64,000 nucleotides of DNA from Daphnia pulex (lineage: Eukaryota > Arthropoda > Branchiopoda > Diplostraca > Daphniidae). Made by a program: the position numbers and the translations under genes. The notes beneath the pieces are model-generated. The model saw nothing but the letters and a program-made list of their open reading frames with translations. It did no database searches and was not told the DNA's origin. The stretch is taken from contig NC_060028.1 of NCBI RefSeq assembly GCF_021134715.1, positions 9,337,482 to 9,401,481 on the forward strand, read 5' to 3'. Within the stretch, counting starts at the first letter, position 1; every line of letters begins with the position of its first letter. Positions 7,689 through 63,733 of the stretch are shown here, one piece after another.

Positions 7689-10600
7689 ATGATACGCCTG
7701 CGACGATTATTCAGCTTCTCGTTGATTCTGTTTATCATTCAAGTCGATGGAGTTCAGATTGGCGCCAAGCCTCCACTTTTGGTTTGCCATGTTCCACTGG
7801 AACTAAAAATTTTCGGTGGGCGTACATTTAAATTAATTAACTTTTAGTATAAAAAAACATGACAATTATTATTATTAGTTGCTTTACGATCACTTTTTTT
7901 TGTCGTTTAATCTGCATTTTAAATCATTTTCAGCTGACTCTTCCTATCAAGCTACGTCTGCTGATTTGAAATCCTGCACCCAAATTACTCTGAGTAGTGT
8001 CAACGCGCTTTTCCTTACCAGCAGCAATGCGTCGTTGACGTCAGTCATGGTTAGTGAGAAACGTAGCCTACAACTGATGAAGCAACAGACTCCGGAAGCC
8101 GCATTTAGCTTCAGTCTTCGTTCATCAAACGTCTTTCCGGCAACAAGACACCTGAAAACCATTTTTAACGGGACGACGTCTGTGGCCCTTTTGATTGAAT
8201 TTCTGAAAGTCAATAAGCTCACAAGTTTTGACATCGCATGGGACTTGATCCAGTCGACACCTGACTACGCGCCAATGCTCAAAACATTGAAGGCATCACT
8301 GGCAAAGGAAGGATTTAATTTGACGACGACGATTGGTAACGAAGTGTACCGCACCGATGCATTTCACGTGAGTAAAATCGCGGCCATCGTTGATCACATA
8401 TTTCTCGTTCCTTCTTACAATCGCCACTACAGCGGAGCGCAGTATCCGTTGGTCGATAAAAATCTGGAACAGGCTTTCGACTCCTTAGAACTAAACGAAG
8501 GAGTCTTCTTGAAACTTTATTCCACGCTGAATTTAAGTTGGACAAAGATCGTTGTTGGATTGTCGTTGCATACGCTTTTGTGGAAATTAAACGCGGGCAC
8601 CACTCTCAAAGGCAGCCAGTTTAACCAAACTCAGGCCGTATTGCAACTTCAGAGCTACTATGAATCCTGTAAAAACGTCAACAGCACATGGCGACTTCAA
8701 CAGCAGCCGAATCCGTTTTACAAGCTGGCTGTAGCTCCAACTAACGACAAGTGGATGATTCACGTCGATCCCTTTACTTTGGGAAGACGCGTGGATCTAC
8801 TGAGACAGTACGGGTTTGGCGGAGTTGCACTCTACGATTATTATCAGGCAGGTTTATTTAATTTTTTAAAATCGTATATTTATAAGTAATCTAACAATTT
8901 AATTTAGGACGATTTTGCCGGTGTTTGTAACGCGAACGCAAAAGTTTATCCCCTTATTCATCAGGCCGGCCTCAGCATGTTTAATAGTAGCACTAAAATT
9001 CCATTTCCTGAAATTGACTCAAACGGCGGACTCTGCATTCCATTTCTTGGACTAACCAATGAGTGCAAAGGAGTCTTCAACTTTGGAACGCCAAAATTAA
9101 ATATCAGCTCCACTGATTTGAAAAGTTCAACAATTTCATCTAGTTTCGCTGTGAAAAAAACCAAGGTTCCCGTTCAGACCGATCCAACAACTACAGGGAT
9201 GACATCGTTAAGTTCTTCTTCAACCACTACACCAACTCCAGTTTCGGATGCTGAGTATTTAGACCAAACTAGGTGGAGTTCAGTTTCATCAGAATCCTTA
9301 AGTACAGAGCATTCTCTTTCCTATGTAAATCTACCTAGACTTGCATCAACTGAAATTAAGCTGGATTTTCCGTCAAGTGAGTATCCTCATTATCTAGATT
9401 ACTCAACTTGCAATAATGCGCATTCTTTTCTACACCATCTAGCGTATAGCAGCGAGATAAAATTACCTGTTGCCGAATCTTTTGTTACGACAAGTGTTTC
9501 TGTAAATGCTGCAACCGGAGGTTTTCTCGGGAAAGATGAGATATGGCGTGACAATCTAACTTACTTGTCTGGCGTTACCAAGGCATCTGCTCTCAGCCAA
9601 AATGATGGCTCATATGTCGCAGCAGCCTTTAATCAGCACATTCAACAGCCCACTTCACCAAACACGGTTTCCGTTATTGATGCTGGTATACATAAACTCA
9701 ATCTAAAAAAGTAAACTTTCATTAAATAATAATACGTTTTCACAAATATTATTGCAGTACCCACTACATCTTTACCAGAAATACGCACCGGGAATAGAAT
9801 CGAATCTCGCTCTGCGTCTGCTACCACAGTGTTGTCAACATTGCCACCCAAACGTAAATATTAATCATAATTTTTTTCACTCGTAAATATTAACACTGAA
9901 ATACTATTTTATTATGTACCTAGTCACCGTTGAAAGTGAAGTTACTGCGGTGGAGCAATTCGCATTACCTACTTCAGAGATTGAGCGGGCGACAGACTTT
10001 ACTATCGTTTCAACCATTCCATCATCTGAAGCGAGTGTCGTCACATTAATCCAAGTAGATACGGAGCCAACATCAACCTATGGTACTCAATGTTAGAGCT
10101 CCAACTTTTCCTACACATTTTTTCAATTTCACTTTTTAAATTCAACAGGATTAAAATTGATAGGTGAAATAACAACAGTTTCATCGAAGTCTGCTTCTGT
10201 TCATGAAACCTTCACCCCTGATACCATACCCCTCGCCTCAACAGAAGGAGATATCCAGAATTTTACAGACGACAAATCATCCGAGAAAGAGGCCTCGGAT
10301 GTCACTAGTTCAGTGACTGAAAATGTTTCTGTTTCAAGTACTGAGCAGTCTTCATTAATTATTGAAAACAATGGTATGACATCACAAAGAGTTTGATTTT
10401 AATTCTGACTTAACTTGAATTTCTTATCACAGAGAATACTTCAGCTCCCGCAGAGACAGACAGCATTGCGACCACCAGGACAGCAGCATTTGGCAATCAA
10501 CAACCTTCGAGTCAATATTCTGGGTCAGTAGGTGATTCAATGGAGGAGACCACCACTGAGCTTCCCAGCTCATCATCTGATACCCAACAAGACTGGACTT

Positions 10601-13600
10601 CTCCGATTCCAAGTTCGGTTGCATTTAAAACTTTGCCTATTGACACCGTGATGGAGTCATTGTATGGAGAATTTGTTCTTACTTCAGAGGAGCCACAAAC
10701 GAACGATGCGTTTTCATCAGAAATGACATCAGCAGGATATCAAGGTACCGTATCCACTGTTCCACCTTCGTCCACTCCTATCGAACAGTTCACGATACGC
10801 AAAATTTCTTCAGAGACTGAAGAAATATCAACGGAAAGCCATATTTTCTCTGACGTATTTCCTTCGACTATCGAAGTGATTCCGCCCCTGATCCTGACTA
10901 CTGCTCAAGACACCACGGGATTACTAACCGAATATGGTAATATTGATTCTGCTAGTTCGATGGCGTCTATTGAGGGAACCCAATTCACCACTGATTTTCA
11001 CCTCTCAACACCAAGTGCTCCTAGTCGTGAGGATGTTAGCAGCACCAACTATAATCCCGTGTCCGTGGCTACGACAGACCCTCCATTGGAAAAATTCCGT
11101 TTAATACCAGTAAAATTGTCAGTACCCAAATCGAGCAGTGTAATTTTGGAACCTGTTGCCCCAACTGAAGATCCAGCTTTTTCGTCCACATTGCAACATG
11201 TATCTGGTTTTGATTCGACCGACGCATTTTTTCCGACCGAACAATTTTCAACTTCGTCTAGGCCATTAGTTTCGAGTACGAATTCTCCACTTTTCAGCGA
11301 ATTTGAAACGGAGTCAGCCGAACAAAACGATGTTTCTACTCTGACACCAATTTTTGAAAATGAGGCACCTGGAGATTCTATGTCAACTCCGGAAGAGTCA
11401 GAAAACGTAATGCCGGGCTATTTAAATGCTACCGACCAACCAGCAACCAGTATCCCGGAAATTGATTCATCTCAAGGGTATTCAAACGAGCATTTCACTA
11501 ACGTCGACACCACGCCAGCTGAAATATCAGACATTGAAAGCAGTGTTGTATCGGATGGGTTATATCCTACTGCAGGGATCCCCAGCATTTTGGAGTCGTC
11601 AACTGAAACTGAATTGCATTTTAGTTCAACTTCTGATAGTTCAGCGGTGTCTACTACAGTTCAACCTGGTGAGCCAACTGAAGACAATTTATCCAGTACG
11701 TTGTCAATGCCCTACAACTTAGAAGCGTCGAACATTCCAACAGAAATTCAAGATTTGTCGCAGTACTCTTCCAGCGATGTCTCTGTAAGCGATTTGTCAT
11801 CTTTTGCTGCAGCAACATCAGGCAGTCTTTCTTCGGATTTATTTTCTCCCACCTTTGAACCAACCACTCCTGTTGATCAAGAATCTTCTTCCACCTTTTC
11901 CATACCCAACGTTATGGATTCGTCAACACAAGAACGGCTTCAAGATTTTAGTTCTCCAAATTCACTAACTTCCACTGAAGAAACAGATAACGACAATAGC
12001 CTTTCAACTACTACTACTCTCCCAATTATGTTAGACGCTAGCACCATGGATACCGATGGAAATAGTATCTTGTTTTCCACGAAAAACTTCTCCTGGGAAA
12101 CATCCCAATCAGAAATAACGTCACCACTACCAGACGAGAGCAAGATTCAACAATCTTTTGATGGCCCATTAAAGCCAACTGAAAATGAATCCGCGTCTCC
12201 ACGGGAACAAGACTTTTTTCCTACTTCGTCCTATGTTCCTAGTCCTTCGATAACGTCTGATTCATCCGTCACTTCATCGTTTCAATCTATCGACACATCA
12301 ACAGAGCCTCACGATGATTCCCCTTCGGTTAGTACAAATTCTCCACAACTCAGCGAATTTGAAATGGGGTCAGGTGACGAATCAATTAATCTTCCAACTT
12401 TGCTACCCATTTTCGAAAATGAGGGATCTGGCGAAGATCCTACAACAACCGTGGAAGAGGCTGAAAACGTTACGCCGGGTTTTTTAAATGCTACCGACCA
12501 ACCAGCAGTAATTCAACCATCTGTGGAAAAGACTAGTCCAGAAAATCAATATCAACTATTCTCGCTTTCCCCTGAAGACTCGTCCAATCATCAAACGGCA
12601 ATCAGCGCATTGCCATCAGAGTTTGCGGAAACATCCCCGGAGGGCAGTGGATTTGAACCCACTCTTCTTCCAAATCAGGTAGATATTGCTTCCACATTTA
12701 TTATTCCGGAAATAATAGAAGCGTCAACCGAGCGCTTATCGAGTTCCCTAACGGGAAATTCAGCTGTGAGTCCGCAAGACGATAATCTGTCAACAGCAGA
12801 TTTGTCTGTGGATGTTAGTGTTGCCGATTCACAATTAGTTAGTAGCGAAATCTATCAGACTACAAGTCCCTCCATTGTGGATCTGCGAATCAAGGAAACG
12901 GCATCCTCATTCATTCCACTCGTCACAGATGAGAACGGCAGTGGTGATAGTACCCCTTTATTCGACACATTAAAGCCAACAGAAAATGAGTCTCCACGGG
13001 AAGAAGACTCTTTTTCTAGTGTGGAAGCTTATTTTTCTACTTTTTCCTATGTTTCCAACGAACAAACCACGACCACTTTACCATCAAGTTCCTCCGTAAC
13101 GGCTGTTTCATCTGCCACTTCATCATTTCAATCCATTGACATTTCAACGGAGCTGCACAGTGCTTCAACTTCATTTAAGCCATCAGTTTCTAGTACAATT
13201 TCTCCACTTTCCAGCGAATTAGAAATGGGGTCAGGCGACGAATCAATTGATGTTCCAACTGAAATACCAATTTTTGAAAACGAGGGATCTGGCGAAGATT
13301 CTACGTCAACTCTAGAAGCTGAGGCTGCTACCGACCAACCCACAATCAATATTTCAAAAATTGATTCAACCATTAATCCGTTTTCTTCCTCATTGGCTGA
13401 TAATGTTTCAGAATCGTCAACAAGGTACACTGTGACTACCACCGTCAGTATTGAATCTACTTCTCCCAGAGCGATGACAGATGCCCTAGAAGAACTCGAA
13501 GCGATTTCATCTACTAAAGTGGCAACAATTATTTCAGAATCTCTTAGTCTTGTAAGTTCATCGCCAGATTCTTCTACTAAAATTCCTTATTTAAGCTCTA

Positions 13601-15918
13601 CACCACCAACTGTCAGCGATACTCCATCTGAACCGTCAACACCTCAATCAACATTTTCTCAAAGTTCAACGTCACTTTCTAGCCAGAGTTTTACCCCCAA
13701 AGTGGATACTGTATCTTCTGTGGCCTTTTCAGATTCTTACACAATTACTAGTTCTACAGCAGCGTGGAGTGGCGCTTCTTCCGAAAGTTCCTTTGGTTCA
13801 AGTAGTGCGTCGACTGAATTGACGTCTTCCTCGTCAACCTCTACAATAAGCATAACTACCTCTAATACTCCTCATAGCAACATCTCAACTGATAAATGGG
13901 TTAAGGCCTCTGACGCAACGACAGAAGTTCTTTCGGCCACTGAACCAACTACTATTTCTTCGTCGAACTTTTCCGCATCATTGTCAGCGTCAACAATTTC
14001 TCATTCTACATCTTCTCTTTCTTCATCCGTGGAGCCAGCATCAACTACTGTGAAGTCTCATTCAACAACCCCTTCCTTCCATACGACGAAATCTTCTCTG
14101 CCTCATTCTGAAATCCCTACTACTACAACTGATCCGTTGTCCAACCTATGGAATTTGTTGATTTCAAAGTTAAACGAAACCATCAGTCTCCCTATTAGCG
14201 GAGAATACTCCTACGTTTCAAGTTTCTTTTGGTCTAATACAACGTCATCCAATCTAACCAGCGAAGACATTCAAGAAATCCCATCACCTTTCATTTCAAG
14301 CCCAATTGAAAATACAGGTAGAAAAATATTGCTGCCTATAACTAACGCTCAGAGTAACAAACACATTTTGTTTTAGGTAACTGGCTTTTCGAAACTCGTC
14401 CTTTTTGGTTGTTGAATCGTCCCAACACGGAGGCACCGTCTTCCTTCTCAACCGACACACTTTCACTTCCAAAAGAAACCAAGCAGACATTATTGCCTGT
14501 TTCTTCCACAACGTCCAACAGCCTTGAAATATCCACGTCGACACCTATCGCAGGTAATTTTATCTCTCAAATGTTATCCTCTTTGAATATTACCTATTCC
14601 TTGTTTCATTGCAGCCTTGTTTGAGACCCGCCCTTTTTGGCTTCAACGTAGTACTCAGCTTACAAAGTCGACGCTTTCTTCCACTCCTAGCATAACAATG
14701 TCCAGAGAATCCTCCAGCACATTAGCGTCGTCAACCAAAGGTAGGAACTTCATTGTTATTCATCCCCGCACGATTTTGACATCCCGTGTATTCTCAGCAC
14801 TGCAAACGTCCGATTCCGAAATGAGCTCAACAACTACAGTAACTCCGCCATCAACGGCTACATCCTTAAGCGCACAACAGTCGACTAGTTTCAATGCACA
14901 TGTTTCTCGAGGGCCTTGCACTGATAACTGCACCGAAGAGTCTACAGGAAATTCTTCCGTCGTTTTTGTTGCAAAAGATGTCGCCAACAATGTCGTCTTA
15001 AATCTAAATGTGGATGCTTACATGGGCGACAAAAGGTTGAATTCTTCTTTTAACTTTGAGAAATGGCTGGAAGATCTTCAGCGATTTCTCAGTTCGCCTT
15101 CAAAGCCTCAAACAGAAGAAATCAAACCGTCGCCTATTTGTGAATTGGCTGGCAATTCAATTCTACTTAAATCTCTTTTCTGTCCAGACGACTCGCTCTC
15201 AACTGCGGACAAAATACGTTTCCCTAATCTAATGAATCTCACTAGACTCTTAGCTCCTGCGATTATTGCCAACTTGACAACATCCATGAATCTGACAGAA
15301 GTTGTGCCTGGCAACGGATCTGAATTTTTTAATCACCAATCCAATATCAGCAGCGAAACTAGTACTGAATCCACCGTTTCCACGTCAACTGAAAGTAGCA
15401 CAAGTATATTCCATTCCCAAAATGTATCGACAACTCTCGTTACTAGCAATCTCTCTGACGTCCCTTTGCCGACAGTATTGAATAGTAGCTTAGAGTCGTT
15501 CATGCTTAACCTAACCGAGCTGTTGAAAGATTCCCAGATGAGTGATTTGATATCGGCCGTGAACAACCTCAATCACTCAGTCCCCGAGGGTTTTCTTGAA
15601 AGTCTTATTCAGAGCAATAATTCTGACGATGACAGGTTTTTCAATAAATCTCCACTTAAAAATGACGTGATGGATGCGGTTACTACCCAAGCACCTTCAT
15701 CGACATTTTCGGCGACGCCGTCTACCACCGTGCAGCACGATATTTTTGCAAAGAACTTTTGGAAAGCAAATAAACGGAATCCGGTCAGAAAGTTACAACG
15801 TGTAGCTGGTCCGGGGCTTGGCATCATTCCGTCTATTCGCTTACCGTTGCGAACAACAGCGAAGCCTGTCTCAAATATTTTCAGTTCCCTTGCCAAACCA
15901 GCGGCTAGTCGTCAATAA
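7689..15918 (+). CDS. Secreted chitinase-like (degenerate GH18) mucin
   Basis: Start 7689 gives a signal peptide (MIRLRRLFSFSLILF). Coding exons: 7689-7815, 7934-8847, 8908-9685, 9758-about 9853, about 9924-10081, about 10149-10374, about 10432-14317, 14377-14553, 14615-15918. Residues from about 30 to 420 follow the GH18 fold order: LLVCHVP at the first strand, an SFDIAWD segment where active chitinases have FDGxDxDWE, and a last-strand block (DKWMIHVDP, FGGVALYDYYQ, DDFAGVC) matching the family's GG(V/A)MxWxxDxDDF. The catalytic acid Glu is absent, so it is probably a carbohydrate-binding pseudoenzyme. The remaining roughly 2,000 residues are Ser/Thr/Pro/Glu-rich with N-glycosylation sequons and acidic Ser-Gly motifs; no transmembrane segment; a basic C-terminal tail. 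Likely extracellular matrix, peritrophic or cuticle-surface protein (inference). Confidence 0.8.
8848..8907 (+). other. GC-AG intron in the GH18-like gene
   Basis: The reading frame can only be joined if CAG at 8847 is followed by a GCAGGT donor and the acceptor TTTAG ends at 8907. This gives YDYYQ followed by DDFAGVC, the GH18 last-strand motif. The nearby GT (8852) would put the next exon out of frame. Confidence 0.75.
11260..13345 (+). repeat. Three degenerate long repeats in the mucin region
   Basis: Three coding blocks about 1.0 and 0.87 kb apart share the same order of short motifs: SSTxSPL, then SExEMGSGDES (second and third copies), PIFENE(G/A)xG, an acidic stretch and ATDQPA. The FENE motif falls near 11350, 12408 and 13270; the first two copies also share LNATDQPA. 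They are diverged, not recent. Confidence 0.75.
14377..14680 (+). repeat. Duplicated exon start, FETRPFWL motif
   Basis: The exon 14377-14553 begins with GNWLFETRPFWLLNR; the next exon (14615 onward) begins with ALFETRPFWLQRS after the same phase-1 acceptor. This suggests local exon duplication within the mucin gene. Confidence 0.7.
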
Positions 15919-26191: not shown

Positions 26192-29309
<3,118 letters not shown>

Positions 29310-30749: not shown

Positions 30750-35688
<4,939 letters not shown>

Positions 35689-52760: not shown

Positions 52761-53714
52761 CGGCAACGTGCCAAAGCATGGATCTTTTCAAGCGAGCCGA
52801 AATCGTTTTTCCGGCGGAAACACCCCACAGACAATAAAGAAAAAATTTCATCATTGCCTTATAAAATTTTTCCAAGTTTAATAATAAAAAGTTTCGGACG
52901 GTAAGCAGAGATCGTTGAAAGTTTTCTACCCGCAAAATGTTTTCTTCAGAGTGTTCAAGACAAACGAGAATTAACTTACAGAGAAAGACGATTCCAAGTT
53001 CCATGGATTCCGAATAATCTCCAGGATCTTCAGAATAGCGTCGATAGTCGTCGTCCTGCTGGGATCATTTCCCAAAGTTACCAAGGAAAGCAGTTGAGAG
53101 GATTCTTCTTTTTAGTCGTCGCGTGCCATTCCGTCGAAATCCGACACTATCATAACAAAAGAATAAACAACAAAAGCGAGCAGTTAGAACAAAAGAAGCA
53201 CACGTTAAAATAGAGAGAGAGACTATACTAACAATAACAATGAAACGTTTATTTTTGATTGAAAGATGCGATTAGTTCACACGACCGAAATGTTTTGGGG
53301 GGCTGCTGCTGACGCCGGTTACTCGCCACGGCTGAGTCACGCTACACACTGGGCAACAAGAGTCGTAGTCTGTTAAAAGATATGAGCAGAAAAGAGAAGG
53401 AGGCTTTGGATGGTTTCTCTGCCCAGTATTTTTCTTCTCCTCGGACCACCTGGCGTCGACCAAGGGTAGAGCAACTGTCGTTGGTAGTTACCAAGGCTCT
53501 CTCTACGTAACGTATACACACACACATATAAAAACATAAAATACAGGAGAAAATAATAGACGCGTGACTCGATGCGTGCGCTGTGTCGACTTCCCGTTCA
53601 CGCTCCCCTGACTTTTGGACTATTGCAACATCTACCGAGTCTGGGACTGCGGTGTGGGTGTGTGTGTGTGTACACAGGGACAAATTAGTGATCGTCACTA
53701 ATCGATATTTCACG

Positions 53715-55828: not shown

Positions 55829-55865
55829 TATATAAACAACCCGGCTACAAGTTCTTGGCGTCATT
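55829..55865 (+). promoter_or_regulatory. TATA box and start site of the phosphatase-only gene
   Basis: TATATAAAC at 55829-55837, and TCATT at 55861-55865 about 30 bases on. The predicted noncoding exon 55861-55941 has no ATG and ends at a GTGAGT donor. Confidence 0.65.
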
Positions 55866-56726
55866 CCTGTTTCGTCGGCCAAACAGTATCAAACTCGCAG
55901 CTCATTCTCATCCAGAACATACCATCGGTGACAGTAAACAGGTGAGTTCAGTGAGTTCACGAATCACGAGATATTTCGAAAGATCGGCCTACGTGATTCT
56001 TTAACCGCCTAAAAGACGTGGATAGATGATGACAGATCTCGGCAATTAGCCAAGATTTATTTTAGATCCGTTATAATGTACGTGGTCAGCACATTCAAAA
56101 AGGTCAAATAGGAGCATTGTTGTTGTAAAATCGATTTCACAACTCAAATTCGCTGCAGATTTGATCGTCGCTTGAAGGCAACAAGCTTTCTTACAAGAGT
56201 AATTTTTTGAATTACATGCGGAACTCTGCTGGCAATATTTTACGTTTTATTGATTATATCTTATCTTATGTATTCATCCGCTTTTCCTTCATTACACTCC
56301 TTTATTCGCCCATTTTGTTGACATCGATTCAGTTTCAAGTGGCCGCAAGGCTGCGCGCGCCTCGATCCCAAAATGCGCGTGTTTAGGTACTAAAACCTCC
56401 CGCTATCTACGTACATGCTTCCCCTTCACTCGACCTCAAGTCAGTAGTCTGTAAAGTCGCAAGTGTGTCCATAGCGTCTCTTTCGAGAAAACACACAACA
56501 TCTAGTGACTTTCATCTTTTTTTAATAGATTTCCTTTTTTTATTTTGTAATCAACTTTCTTTTAATTATCGAATGCTTGCCTTGAAGTATGCCCTTGATT
56601 TTGCAAGATTTCCCAGGTTTGATTGGATTGCTTTCTAGTAATGACCACATTGTTTGTTTTTTTGTAGTCAGTAATGATGTGAGATGTAATTGCCCAAACT
56701 GTCTGTTTTAGTTACTCCAGTGATTT

Positions 56727-56836
56727 ATGAAGACTGTCTTACCACTCTGCACAACATTAAAGCTGCACAATGCTTGTCGTTTTGACGGAAAGGCTTGCCC
56801 CAATCTTGGAATGGCTCAAAAGCGTCGCTGGATATA
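56727..56836 (+). promoter_or_regulatory. Upstream ORF overlapping the start of the phosphatase-only gene
   Basis: ATG at 56727 with T at -3 (weak context) opens about 36 codons (MKTVLPLCTT onward) in another frame and meets a TAG formed across the splice junction with 57261. The main ATG at 56770 has A at -3, so leaky scanning is plausible. Confidence 0.5.
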
Positions 56837-58630
56837 GTAAGTCGTAGAAACGTTTGTTTGTTTTGGTTTGGTTTGGTTTGGTCTCTCGTCCAGCCTAGAC
56901 TCTTTTCAGTCTTTTGGCTTTAACAATCATTATTATAACTTAATGCTTGAGACTAGTGTAGGTTGCAATGCATTCACTAGCTATATAGCTCCGAAATTTC
57001 AACCTTGGGGAAGTTGAGAGTAACGGCTTTTGTTTGTTTTTTTGGGAGGGATTTTTCCATCATGTATGCATTCCAAGGAACATATATATCCACCCCTTAT
57101 TTGAAATGAAACTTGGAGCCAACTCAGCCAAGACGAGATTTAACTTAAAACCAGTTTTTAATGATATTTCTCCGCCGAGGGAAATAATCTTTTGGCTTTT
57201 GATTTTCCTAGCTACATTTTTTAAAATTCCTTTTTGTTTTCTTTATTTAATTTTTTACAGGCGTGGTTGAATCGAACTGGAAGGCATTAAACGTTTCTAA
57301 TACACAAAGGAATAAGGATCCATCCCTTATCGACTGCAATCCCCGGATGAATTATTCTGTTCCGTTAGCTACTGGTCACTCGTCATCGCTGTTGGATCTG
57401 TCTACTAATCCAGATGATTGGATTCTACTTGACGGCAGTAAAGTGTCGGTGAGTTTTTTTTATAAATAACCTTGTGAATTGGTTTCCTGTTCCCCAAGTG
57501 AAAACCAAGGTTATTACTAATTCTTTTGTTTTGTCTGCAGTTTATGAGACTTTCTAACCTGTCTTCCAATTCGAAGAAGGATCTATGCCGAAAGTTAGGG
57601 GGTGCCAATGGCCAGCAGGATGTTTATGTGCTGGGTGTTTCCTACAGTGACGCACAATCTCTTTCTGGTTGTCGAGATTATCCTAAGGCCAATTGCCACA
57701 CTTTGCCTCGCTGCCGAAGTTACCGATTGCGAAAAACTCAATTGATGGCCGAGCCGTTCGACACGCTTTCATCAATAACTAGTCGGGCCAATAATGAAAG
57801 CCGCACACTTTACTTCAGTCGGGTACTACTGGCTTGATTATTATTGCTTCCAAGTTGGCGTTTTTCTAAATCAAATTTGTGTCATCTAATTACGTTGATA
57901 GCATGGCGAGAGCGAGTACAACGTTCTCGGAAAAGTTGGAGGCGACGCGGACCTTTCCCCGCGGGGCTATCAGTACGCGGATAGTTTAGCCGAGTACGTC
58001 AACGGTACTTTGGGTAACACTCCGGGATTCAAACTATGGACTTCTTGTTTGAAACGCACCATTCAAACGGCTAAAAACATTGAAGCTCCTCGAGAACATC
58101 TGGATGCGCTTAATGAACTCGATACTGGCGTTTGTGACGGACTCACTTACGAAGAGATTGCTGAACGCTATCCAATCGAGTTTGCTGCTCGCGACGACGA
58201 CAAATTTCATTATCGTTATCCAGAAGGCGAATCTTATTTTGATCTGCTCCTTCGCGTCAAGCCTGTCCTGGACCGGCTGAAGGTCGAAAACAATGTTCTG
58301 GTGATCGCACACCAAGCAGTTCTGCGCTGCCTTTTGGCAGCCTTGCTCAAAAAAGATGAAAAAGAACTGCCCTACATCCATACACCACTCCATACAGTGA
58401 TGCGACTGTCGTTTAAACCTGCCGATGGCGGTTGCCATCTGGACCTTATCCCGCTGAGCATCGAATGTGTCGAAACGCACAGAGCCAAACCCGAGGTAAC
58501 ATTTCTTTCACGGTCTAGTTCTTTTGTTTGAAGACTAATCAATTCGACAAAACCCTTCTATAATATTTAGAATTGCAGTCTCACACGAACGGCTGAGGAG
58601 GCCTGTGTTACAGTTCCTGCCCATTTCTAA
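56770..58630 (+). CDS. Stand-alone fructose-2,6-bisphosphatase derived from PFKFB, kinase lost
   Basis: Exons 56770-56836, 57261-57448, 57541-57822, 57902-58495 and 58571-58630 encode about 396 residues. Residues from about 175 match the PFKFB phosphatase half: SRHGESEYN with the phospho-accepting His, [78 protein letters not shown]. The exon break inside RHGE is the same as in the full-length gene at 28259/28348, showing common origin. The first 175 residues are unrelated (Ser/Asn-rich, with FMRLSNLSSNSKK and a Cys/Arg patch) and contain no Walker A, so it cannot be a 6-phosphofructo-2-kinase. Predicted to lower fructose-2,6-bisphosphate, similar in outcome to TIGAR but of different descent. 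Substrate preference untested. Confidence 0.9.
56860..56882 (+). repeat. TTTGG short tandem repeat
   Basis: About four TTTGG units near the start of intron 2 of the phosphatase-only gene. Confidence 0.85.
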
Positions 58631-62755: not shown

Positions 62756-63733
62756 ATGGGTAAATATTCTGTCTTTACATGGAGTTTTCTATTAATACCA
62801 ATTATTTTCTGTTTGTTAATGTGTAAATTATTATTGAATATTTATGTTTTAATTTGTTTACTGTCTAGTTAATAAGGCGTCGTATGCTGTTGGGTGTTGT
62901 ATCGTTGATTGGTGGGTCGACCACTGGTTTGCTGATGTCTCCTTGGTATGGCGGATACCAAACCACAACGCCGCCGCCTTACTACCCAAAAGCAACTTAC
63001 GCAACAACCAGTTCCTGCACCGAGGTCTTCAAGTACTACACCATTAAAGCACCGGAGTTTTAAACCACAACTTACGCTGCCCCTGGGCACTACCGGCCAC
63101 TACACTGACGCCCTGAAGTATTACTCTGCCCCGAGTTACTACACCACCAAGGCGACGGAGCATGACTACGCCTGCTGCCCCATCCTACTACACCGAGACT
63201 CCCAAGTATTACTCTGTTCTCAGCTACTTATTGCACCGATTATCCTAAATACTGCTCTGTTCCCAGCTACTACACCGAGGCTCCCGCTGATTACTCCACC
63301 CAAACGGTCGAATACTACACCGAAGCGGTTAAGTACTACTCTGCCGCGATCTACACAACCACAACTGAGGCGGCCATGTATTACGCAGTCCCGACTTCCT
63401 ACACAGAAGCTGCTCTTTCGTACTACGTTGAACAGAAATACTACACTGATGCTCTAGTTTACTACACCACGACCTACGCTACACCGCAGCCCCCAAGTAC
63501 TACACCGAAGAAGCCGCTTTTTACACACCAACGTATGCTGCCTAGTTTACAACACCGATGCTCCTCAGTACTACATCACTAAGGCACCGTAATTCTACAC
63601 GTCTATGTATGCTGCTCCTGCCTACTACACCGAGGCCCCGCATTACTACAACACTGAAACGCTCAAGTACTACACTACAACCTACGCTGCCCCGAGCTAC
63701 TACACCTACGTCCCGAAGTATTACTGTGCGTAA
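62756..63733 (+). pseudogene. Disrupted tyrosine/threonine-rich repeat gene, copy 1
   Basis: A 4-base exon ATGG (62756-62759) joins to 62869 after a 109-base intron, as in the downstream copy. The main exon is a string of TAC-TAC-ACC units encoding YYT-(E/D)-A-P/L-KYY type repeats, but the frame changes repeatedly: stop after KAPEF near 63060, later stops near 63246 and 63544, and frame switches between them. Compared with copy 2 the signal-peptide region is two bases shorter (TTAATAAGGC versus TTATCTATGG). The family looks like secreted cuticle or matrix Tyr-rich proteins. Sequencing error in a repetitive region is the alternative; several independent breaks argue for decay. Confidence 0.65.

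Follow-up and report, generated by a model that had tools for sequence, protein, structure and literature searches.

A putative kinase-eroded PFKFB duplicate with a complete fructose-2,6-bisphosphatase half in Daphnia pulex

Genes at the locus

The window analysed is a 64,000-nucleotide stretch of the D. pulex genome (assembly GCF_021134715.1, contig NC_060028.1, positions 9,337,482 to 9,401,481 of the forward strand), and coordinates given without another contig are those of the window. Gene A (26192..29309, plus strand) is a bifunctional PFKFB paralogue of 11 exons and 573 aa, with an exon model built by hand. It carries RHGES and a GLPARGKT motif interrupted by an intron, and Pfam finds in it both 6PF2K (1.1e-82) and His_Phos_1. 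About 1.9 kb after gene A, upstream of gene C and on the same strand as both, starts the gene for PFK-1 (6-phosphofructokinase; 31204..35409, plus strand), recognised by Pfam on two ORFs. It is the sole PFK-1 gene detected in the genome, with all nine PF00365 matches at E 0.01 or better falling at 31204-35409. Two similar stretches within it, at about 32150-32260 and 32540-32650, resemble alternative exons that are perhaps mutually exclusive. A TORC/CRTC gene, EHMT-like ORFs and ankyrin ORFs separate PFK-1 from gene C. Elsewhere in the window, a GH18 (chitinase-like) ORF is followed by very long Ser/Thr-rich mucin-like ORFs (7879-15918), and Tyr-rich repeats of the KYYSAPSYYT or YYTEA type are found in overlapping frames at 62936-63582.

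Gene C (56770-58630, plus strand) is an intact five-exon gene of 396 aa whose frame is open to the stop and whose four introns are all GT-AG. An in-frame TAA, read by eye, lies at 56758-56760, 5' of the ATG. Exon 1 (56770..56836) holds 22 codons and one nucleotide, ends in phase 1 and has its start codon at the place of the Walker A motif. Exon 2 (57261..57448) is the counterpart of the gene A kinase exon that runs from VFNLGEYRR to GGEVG, and exon 3 (57541..57822) is that of gene A exons 5 and 6 together (VFDATNTT to TIYLTR), with 94 residues versus 131 in gene A and with the Arg of RHGE as its last codon. The whole fructose-2,6-bisphosphatase core (198 aa) is contained in the single exon 4 (57902..58495), and exon 5 (58571..58630) encodes the C-terminal tail NCSLTRTAEEACVTVPAHF and then the stop. 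Upstream of the gene, at 55829-55941, TATATAAA and, about 30 nt further on, a possible untranslated first exon ending in AG/GTGAGT were seen by eye and perhaps mark its promoter (here and below, a slash inside a motif marks an intron).

The other members of the family were sought in the whole genome (133,188,837 bases in 13 contigs). The protein of exon 4 gave eight matches at E up to 1, namely gene C (one), gene A (four pieces) and gene B (three pieces). Gene B is a second bifunctional PFKFB on the minus strand of contig 6 (L024); its hand-made model is open throughout and contains a 16-nt microexon. The 6PF2K profile gave seven matches at E 0.001: three in gene A, three in gene B and one in a sub-cut-off P-loop ORF of contig 6, at 1981655, which looks PSTK-like by eye. 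Neither this search nor tblastn of the gene B kinase part over 52-60 kb of the window found a kinase exon near gene C.

A TIGAR gene is also present in the genome (contig 3, L029 1541-2677; best PDB match 3dcy), and gene C would thus be an additional route and not a replacement. Taken as a raw ORF, this gene shows YSGET and could pass for a dead TIGAR; that reading was discarded, since RHGET is obtained once an intron is placed within the catalytic His codon, which seems to be split by it. One Gln that this model puts in front of HYG is probably an error, as the splice site appears to be three bases further on.

The phosphatase half

His_Phos_1 (3.4e-37) is the only Pfam family in gene C. The exon 4 protein matches PFKFB1 across its full length (phmmer, E 1.4e-63), and TIGAR (3dcy) is absent from its 22 phmmer matches at E 0.001. 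In the phosphatase part, gene C is 56% identical to gene A, 55% to gene B and 55% to PFKFB1, and 52-54% to PFKFB4 and PFKFB2; genes A and B share 74%. Thirteen positions were compared (258, 264, 270, 307, 310, 327, 338, 352, 356, 367, 392, 393 and 397 in liver numbering), chosen for their roles in the enzyme; all 13 are the same in gene C, human PFKFB1, gene A and gene B. Among them are substrate-binding residues (N264, Y338, R352, K356, Y367, Q393 and R397).

Regarding the wider domain, gene C keeps 88 of the 119 positions that are invariant among PFKFB1, gene A and gene B, and the 31 that are altered include a few next in sequence to checked ones (269, 368). The proportion of differences at codon positions 1, 2 and 3 is 0.366, 0.206 and 0.686 between A and C and 0.335, 0.242 and 0.546 between B and C, a pattern that fits protein-level constraint. 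An AlphaFold model of this half, made with 14 alignment rows, reached a pLDDT of 91.8 and a pTM of 0.87 and resembles 1tip and 1fbt with a TM of 0.88-0.92. In Foldseek, judged on the best 50 of 918 matches, the 28 best are PFKFB, ahead of any other histidine phosphatase, and TIGAR is not the closest solved structure. The tail NCSLTRTAEEACVTVPAHF aligns with the tails of PFKFB1 and PFKFB4, and no comparable tail turned up when 4.9 kb at the end of gene A and 1.8 kb at the end of gene B were searched for the motif.

These data describe a histidine phosphatase domain of the FBPase-2 type with a complete active site, and the gene C phosphatase should work. However, its long branch in the tree below and the 31 changed positions suggest that its activity or specificity may have shifted.

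Introns common to the three genes

Genes A and B have in common the introns NTK/V (phase 1), VG/V or VA/V (phase 0), FNT/G (phase 1) and R/H (phase 0). Those of gene C are GY/S (phase 1), KVS/F (phase 0), R/H (phase 0) and KPE/N (phase 0), the last of which matches KPQ/I of gene A. All four match introns of gene A in position and phase, the first being one residue off, and three of the four match gene B; the R/HGE intron, in phase 0, is thus common to A, B and C. Gene C lacks FNT/G, an intron of both A and B, and also the three introns inside the phosphatase part of gene A, two of which occur in B as well; the flanking introns are kept. The shared introns point to common descent with PFKFB.

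The preliminary description of this DNA had placed a gene at 56770..58630, listed phosphatase motifs in it and taken the exon boundary inside RHGE as a sign of descent from the bifunctional gene. The gene is borne out by five exons, four introns of the GT-AG type and 396 uninterrupted codons; the motifs are present, the 13 compared positions being the same in C, PFKFB1, A and B; and the descent is supported by more introns than that one.

The N-terminal part

Searches without anchors do not recognise a kinase in the N-terminal part of gene C. A Pfam scan up to E 10 found no family in this part and no 6PF2K (PF01591) in gene C, in which the Walker A motif GLPARGKT is also missing; gene A has both domains. 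Unanchored HMMER found no kinase (-1.9 bits). Global alignment with the kinase gave a z of 3.5, with one of 731 shuffles reaching the score. In the PDB, 19 sequences matched to E 10 (best E 0.00077), mostly WD40-type repeat proteins. A WD40 reading was not retained: the six best matches sum many sub-threshold stretches and, as they hold no single passing stretch, they look like repeat artefacts. Likewise dropped was the idea of a TP53INP-like or LC3-interacting segment around DDWILL; Pfam is empty to E 10, and DDWILL coincides with the WL or WI that precedes GGEV in the kinase.

The picture is different when the shared introns are used as anchors, that is, when residues are aligned without gaps to the kinase profile from the shared intron positions. 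At the junction of intron 2, four window sizes gave z 4.39-4.73, with 1, 5, 2 and 3 of 100,000 shuffles reaching the score and with rank 1 among 153-178 kinase offsets. Control windows, taken from 57 other stop-to-stop segments, reached it in 0 of 7,201, 1 of 6,631, 0 of 5,776 and 0 of 6,346 cases. With two window sizes, a profile of five bacterial enzymes gave p 1.5e-4 and 2.5e-4 (rank 1 in both), one of three vertebrate enzymes 7e-4 and 1.6e-3 (ranks 1 and 2) and one of all ten enzymes 3.5e-4 and 2.5e-4 (rank 1 in both); a profile of A and B only was weaker (3.45e-3 and 4.2e-3, rank 2 in both). Bifunctional PFKFB-like ORFs with GLPARGK and RHGES were also seen in bacterial MAG contigs (L034-L038) from Polyangia, a delta proteobacterium, two Proteobacteria and Desulfovibrio.

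In exon 1, LVVLTERLAPILEWL has its best fit at a 15-residue kinase stretch, one residue from the place predicted by the intron. With two residues of slack, p was 5e-5, 1.5e-4 and 2.5e-4 for three profiles, and 4.5e-4 in another test; the choice of these 15 residues is favourable, since for exon 1 in its entirety p is no better than 0.029 with slack (0.71-0.84 without). The end of exon 2 (LLDLSTNPDDWILLDGSKVS) aligns with p 0.0008-0.0018, at rank 1 in four of five window sizes and rank 2 in the other, and the start of exon 2 showed no alignment with the kinase (p 0.35-0.42). In exon 3, the first 20-45 residues alone gave p 0.002-0.04 and rank 3 to 8, and the last 12 residues fit the kinase end with p at most 8e-5. 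All these p-values are optimistic, because an alignment had first drawn attention to the kinase pattern and the tests then used that very sequence; the evidence from the bacterial profile and from the intron phases is more independent.

In the anchored alignment Met1-Leu2 of gene C stands opposite Gly-Lys of Walker A, with Leu in place of Lys, and FMRLSN stands opposite VFDATN of the kinase. By these placements the ATP-binding Lys and the conserved Asp are gone from gene C, and a start codon on the Walker A motif makes kinase activity implausible. The N-terminal part is probably an eroded 6PF-2-kinase half and not an unrelated segment.

Further claims of the preliminary description are to be reconsidered here. 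Its view that the 175 N-terminal residues are unrelated to the kinase is contradicted by introns at kinase positions and by anchored similarity in most stretches tested. Its view that kinase function was lost agrees with the lack of a 6PF2K match up to E 10 and of Walker A. It had also held that orthologues with an N-terminal part aligning to the kinase fold would refute it; the anchored similarity comes close to such a result, but what aligns is a remnant without Walker A. Its idea of an enzyme dedicated to removing fructose-2,6-bisphosphate, TIGAR-like in function but of separate origin, would agree with the active site and the structural model, in a genome that bears a TIGAR gene as well.

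Position of gene C in the family

The phosphatase tree does not place gene C securely, and no placement is rejected at 0.05 in the AU test: p was 0.658 with C outside the animal PFKFBs, 0.525 with A, 0.409 with A and B together, 0.082 with the vertebrates and 0.068 with B. The branch of gene C is long (0.68-0.90). Since its tail was not found in A and B, gene C is probably no late copy of either gene as it is now.

Origin and possible function

We consider it rather likely that gene C is a PFKFB duplicate in which the kinase half decayed and the phosphatase half stayed under selection. The sequence lacks the part in which the regulatory N-terminus and Walker A would lie, translation begins at the former Walker A site, and what is left of the kinase has drifted to near-unrecognisability, with the phosphatase core and C-terminal tail complete. 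Such a protein should be unable to make fructose-2,6-bisphosphate. It could still hydrolyse it to fructose-6-phosphate via a phospho-histidine at His180, by which the PFK-1 activator would fall and flux could tilt from glycolysis to gluconeogenesis or the pentose phosphate path. In PMC6937325, an N-terminal hairpin is described as controlling the phosphatase of PFKFB3; lacking the segment that restrains it there, gene C may encode a constitutively active enzyme governed by how strongly it is expressed. PMC3332096 reports that PFKFB2 lacking its kinase domain is active in islets, where it shifts oscillations the opposite way from a form with the kinase only. By analogy with both, a free-standing phosphatase seems biochemically reasonable.

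The N-terminal part could instead be an unrelated, newly recruited segment joined to the phosphatase exon, the upstream intron matches being coincidental. In its favour, neither Pfam nor HMMER recognises a kinase there, the beginning of exon 2 fails to align and the PDB matches are mostly of WD40 type and not kinases of the PFKFB kind. Nevertheless, two introns besides R/HGE lie at kinase positions with matching phases, the anchored similarity appears on both sides of one intron, in exon 1 and in the last 12 residues before R/HGE, and the six best PDB matches look artefactual, which makes this origin unlikely. A little less probable still is that the phosphatase is active but has come to prefer a substrate other than fructose-2,6-bisphosphate: the long branch and the 31 of 119 changed positions would agree with it, but all the substrate-binding residues among those compared are kept and the 28 best structural matches are PFKFB.

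Decay of the whole gene would account for the eroded kinase half. A pseudogene is nevertheless very improbable here, given a frame open over five exons with canonical splice sites, the codon-position constraint, the full set of checked residues and the presence of the tail. As for the start, the modelled one could be incomplete and a further upstream exon supply a working kinase, as the in-frame TAA before the ATG leaves splicing from upstream into exon 2 possible and tblastn of the gene B kinase part over 52-60 kb gave two matches, at E 0.047 (minus strand) and 0.081 (plus strand, 53426-53593). However, the latter has a stop and no Walker A, neither exceeds what is expected in so permissive a search, the genome-wide 6PF2K matches at E 0.001 are those of A, B and one sub-cut-off P-loop ORF elsewhere, and exons 2 and 3 have no kinase motifs anyway; this scenario deserves hardly any credence.

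Since A, PFK-1 and C lie on the same strand inside 33 kb, they might form a linked control unit for fructose-2,6-bisphosphate, in which the fossil kinase of C still provides a surface for dimerisation with A and the dimer favours hydrolysis; this is an improbable speculation.

A bifunctional PFKFB sets fructose-2,6-bisphosphate through two opposed activities balanced in one chain. An animal gene with the removing half only would separate the two controls. Gene C, read as a kinase-eroded duplicate, would exemplify the dismantling of a bifunctional enzyme, with an exon structure that outlasts the sequence as witness of its origin, and it would allow a direct test of what a true FBPase-2 unlinked from a kinase does in an animal that also bears TIGAR.

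Comparison with known systems

Gene C shares with the bifunctional PFKFBs (A, B and human PFKFB1-4) the phosphatase core, the checked active-site positions and the fold, as well as the R/HGE intron (A and B), the KP[EQ]/ intron (A) and a tail like those of PFKFB1 and PFKFB4. Unlike them, it appears to have no working kinase and no regulatory N-terminus, and 179 residues precede HGE versus 343 in gene A. The structures 1fbt and 1tip, the isolated bisphosphatase domain of rat liver PFKFB, are like gene C without the kinase, but they come from a laboratory construct and not from a gene.

TIGAR, likewise a stand-alone histidine phosphatase, reportedly acts on fructose-2,6-bisphosphate and belongs to another branch of the superfamily than gene C. 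According to PMC6131595, its activity towards this substrate is lower by several orders of magnitude.

Among the matches listed and in the accessible parts of the open-licence literature, no kinase-less animal PFKFB or kinase-eroded arthropod PFKFB was found, and the relevant passages of two papers on Daphnia hypoxia (PMC10409257, PMC9548574) concern fructose-1,6-bisphosphatase. PMC12632388 and PMC12873801 contributed nothing decisive. In fungi, a phosphatase-only PFKFB is already known: PMC9721465 reports phosphatase activity only for the PFKFB homologues FBP26 of yeast and pfk2-a of Myceliophthora, which keep the two-domain structure and lost one activity through substitutions and deletions. 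In gene C, by comparison, the Walker A part is gone. It nevertheless combines the same features as FBP26, namely descent from PFKFB, a kinase disabled as judged by sequence only, and a complete phosphatase.
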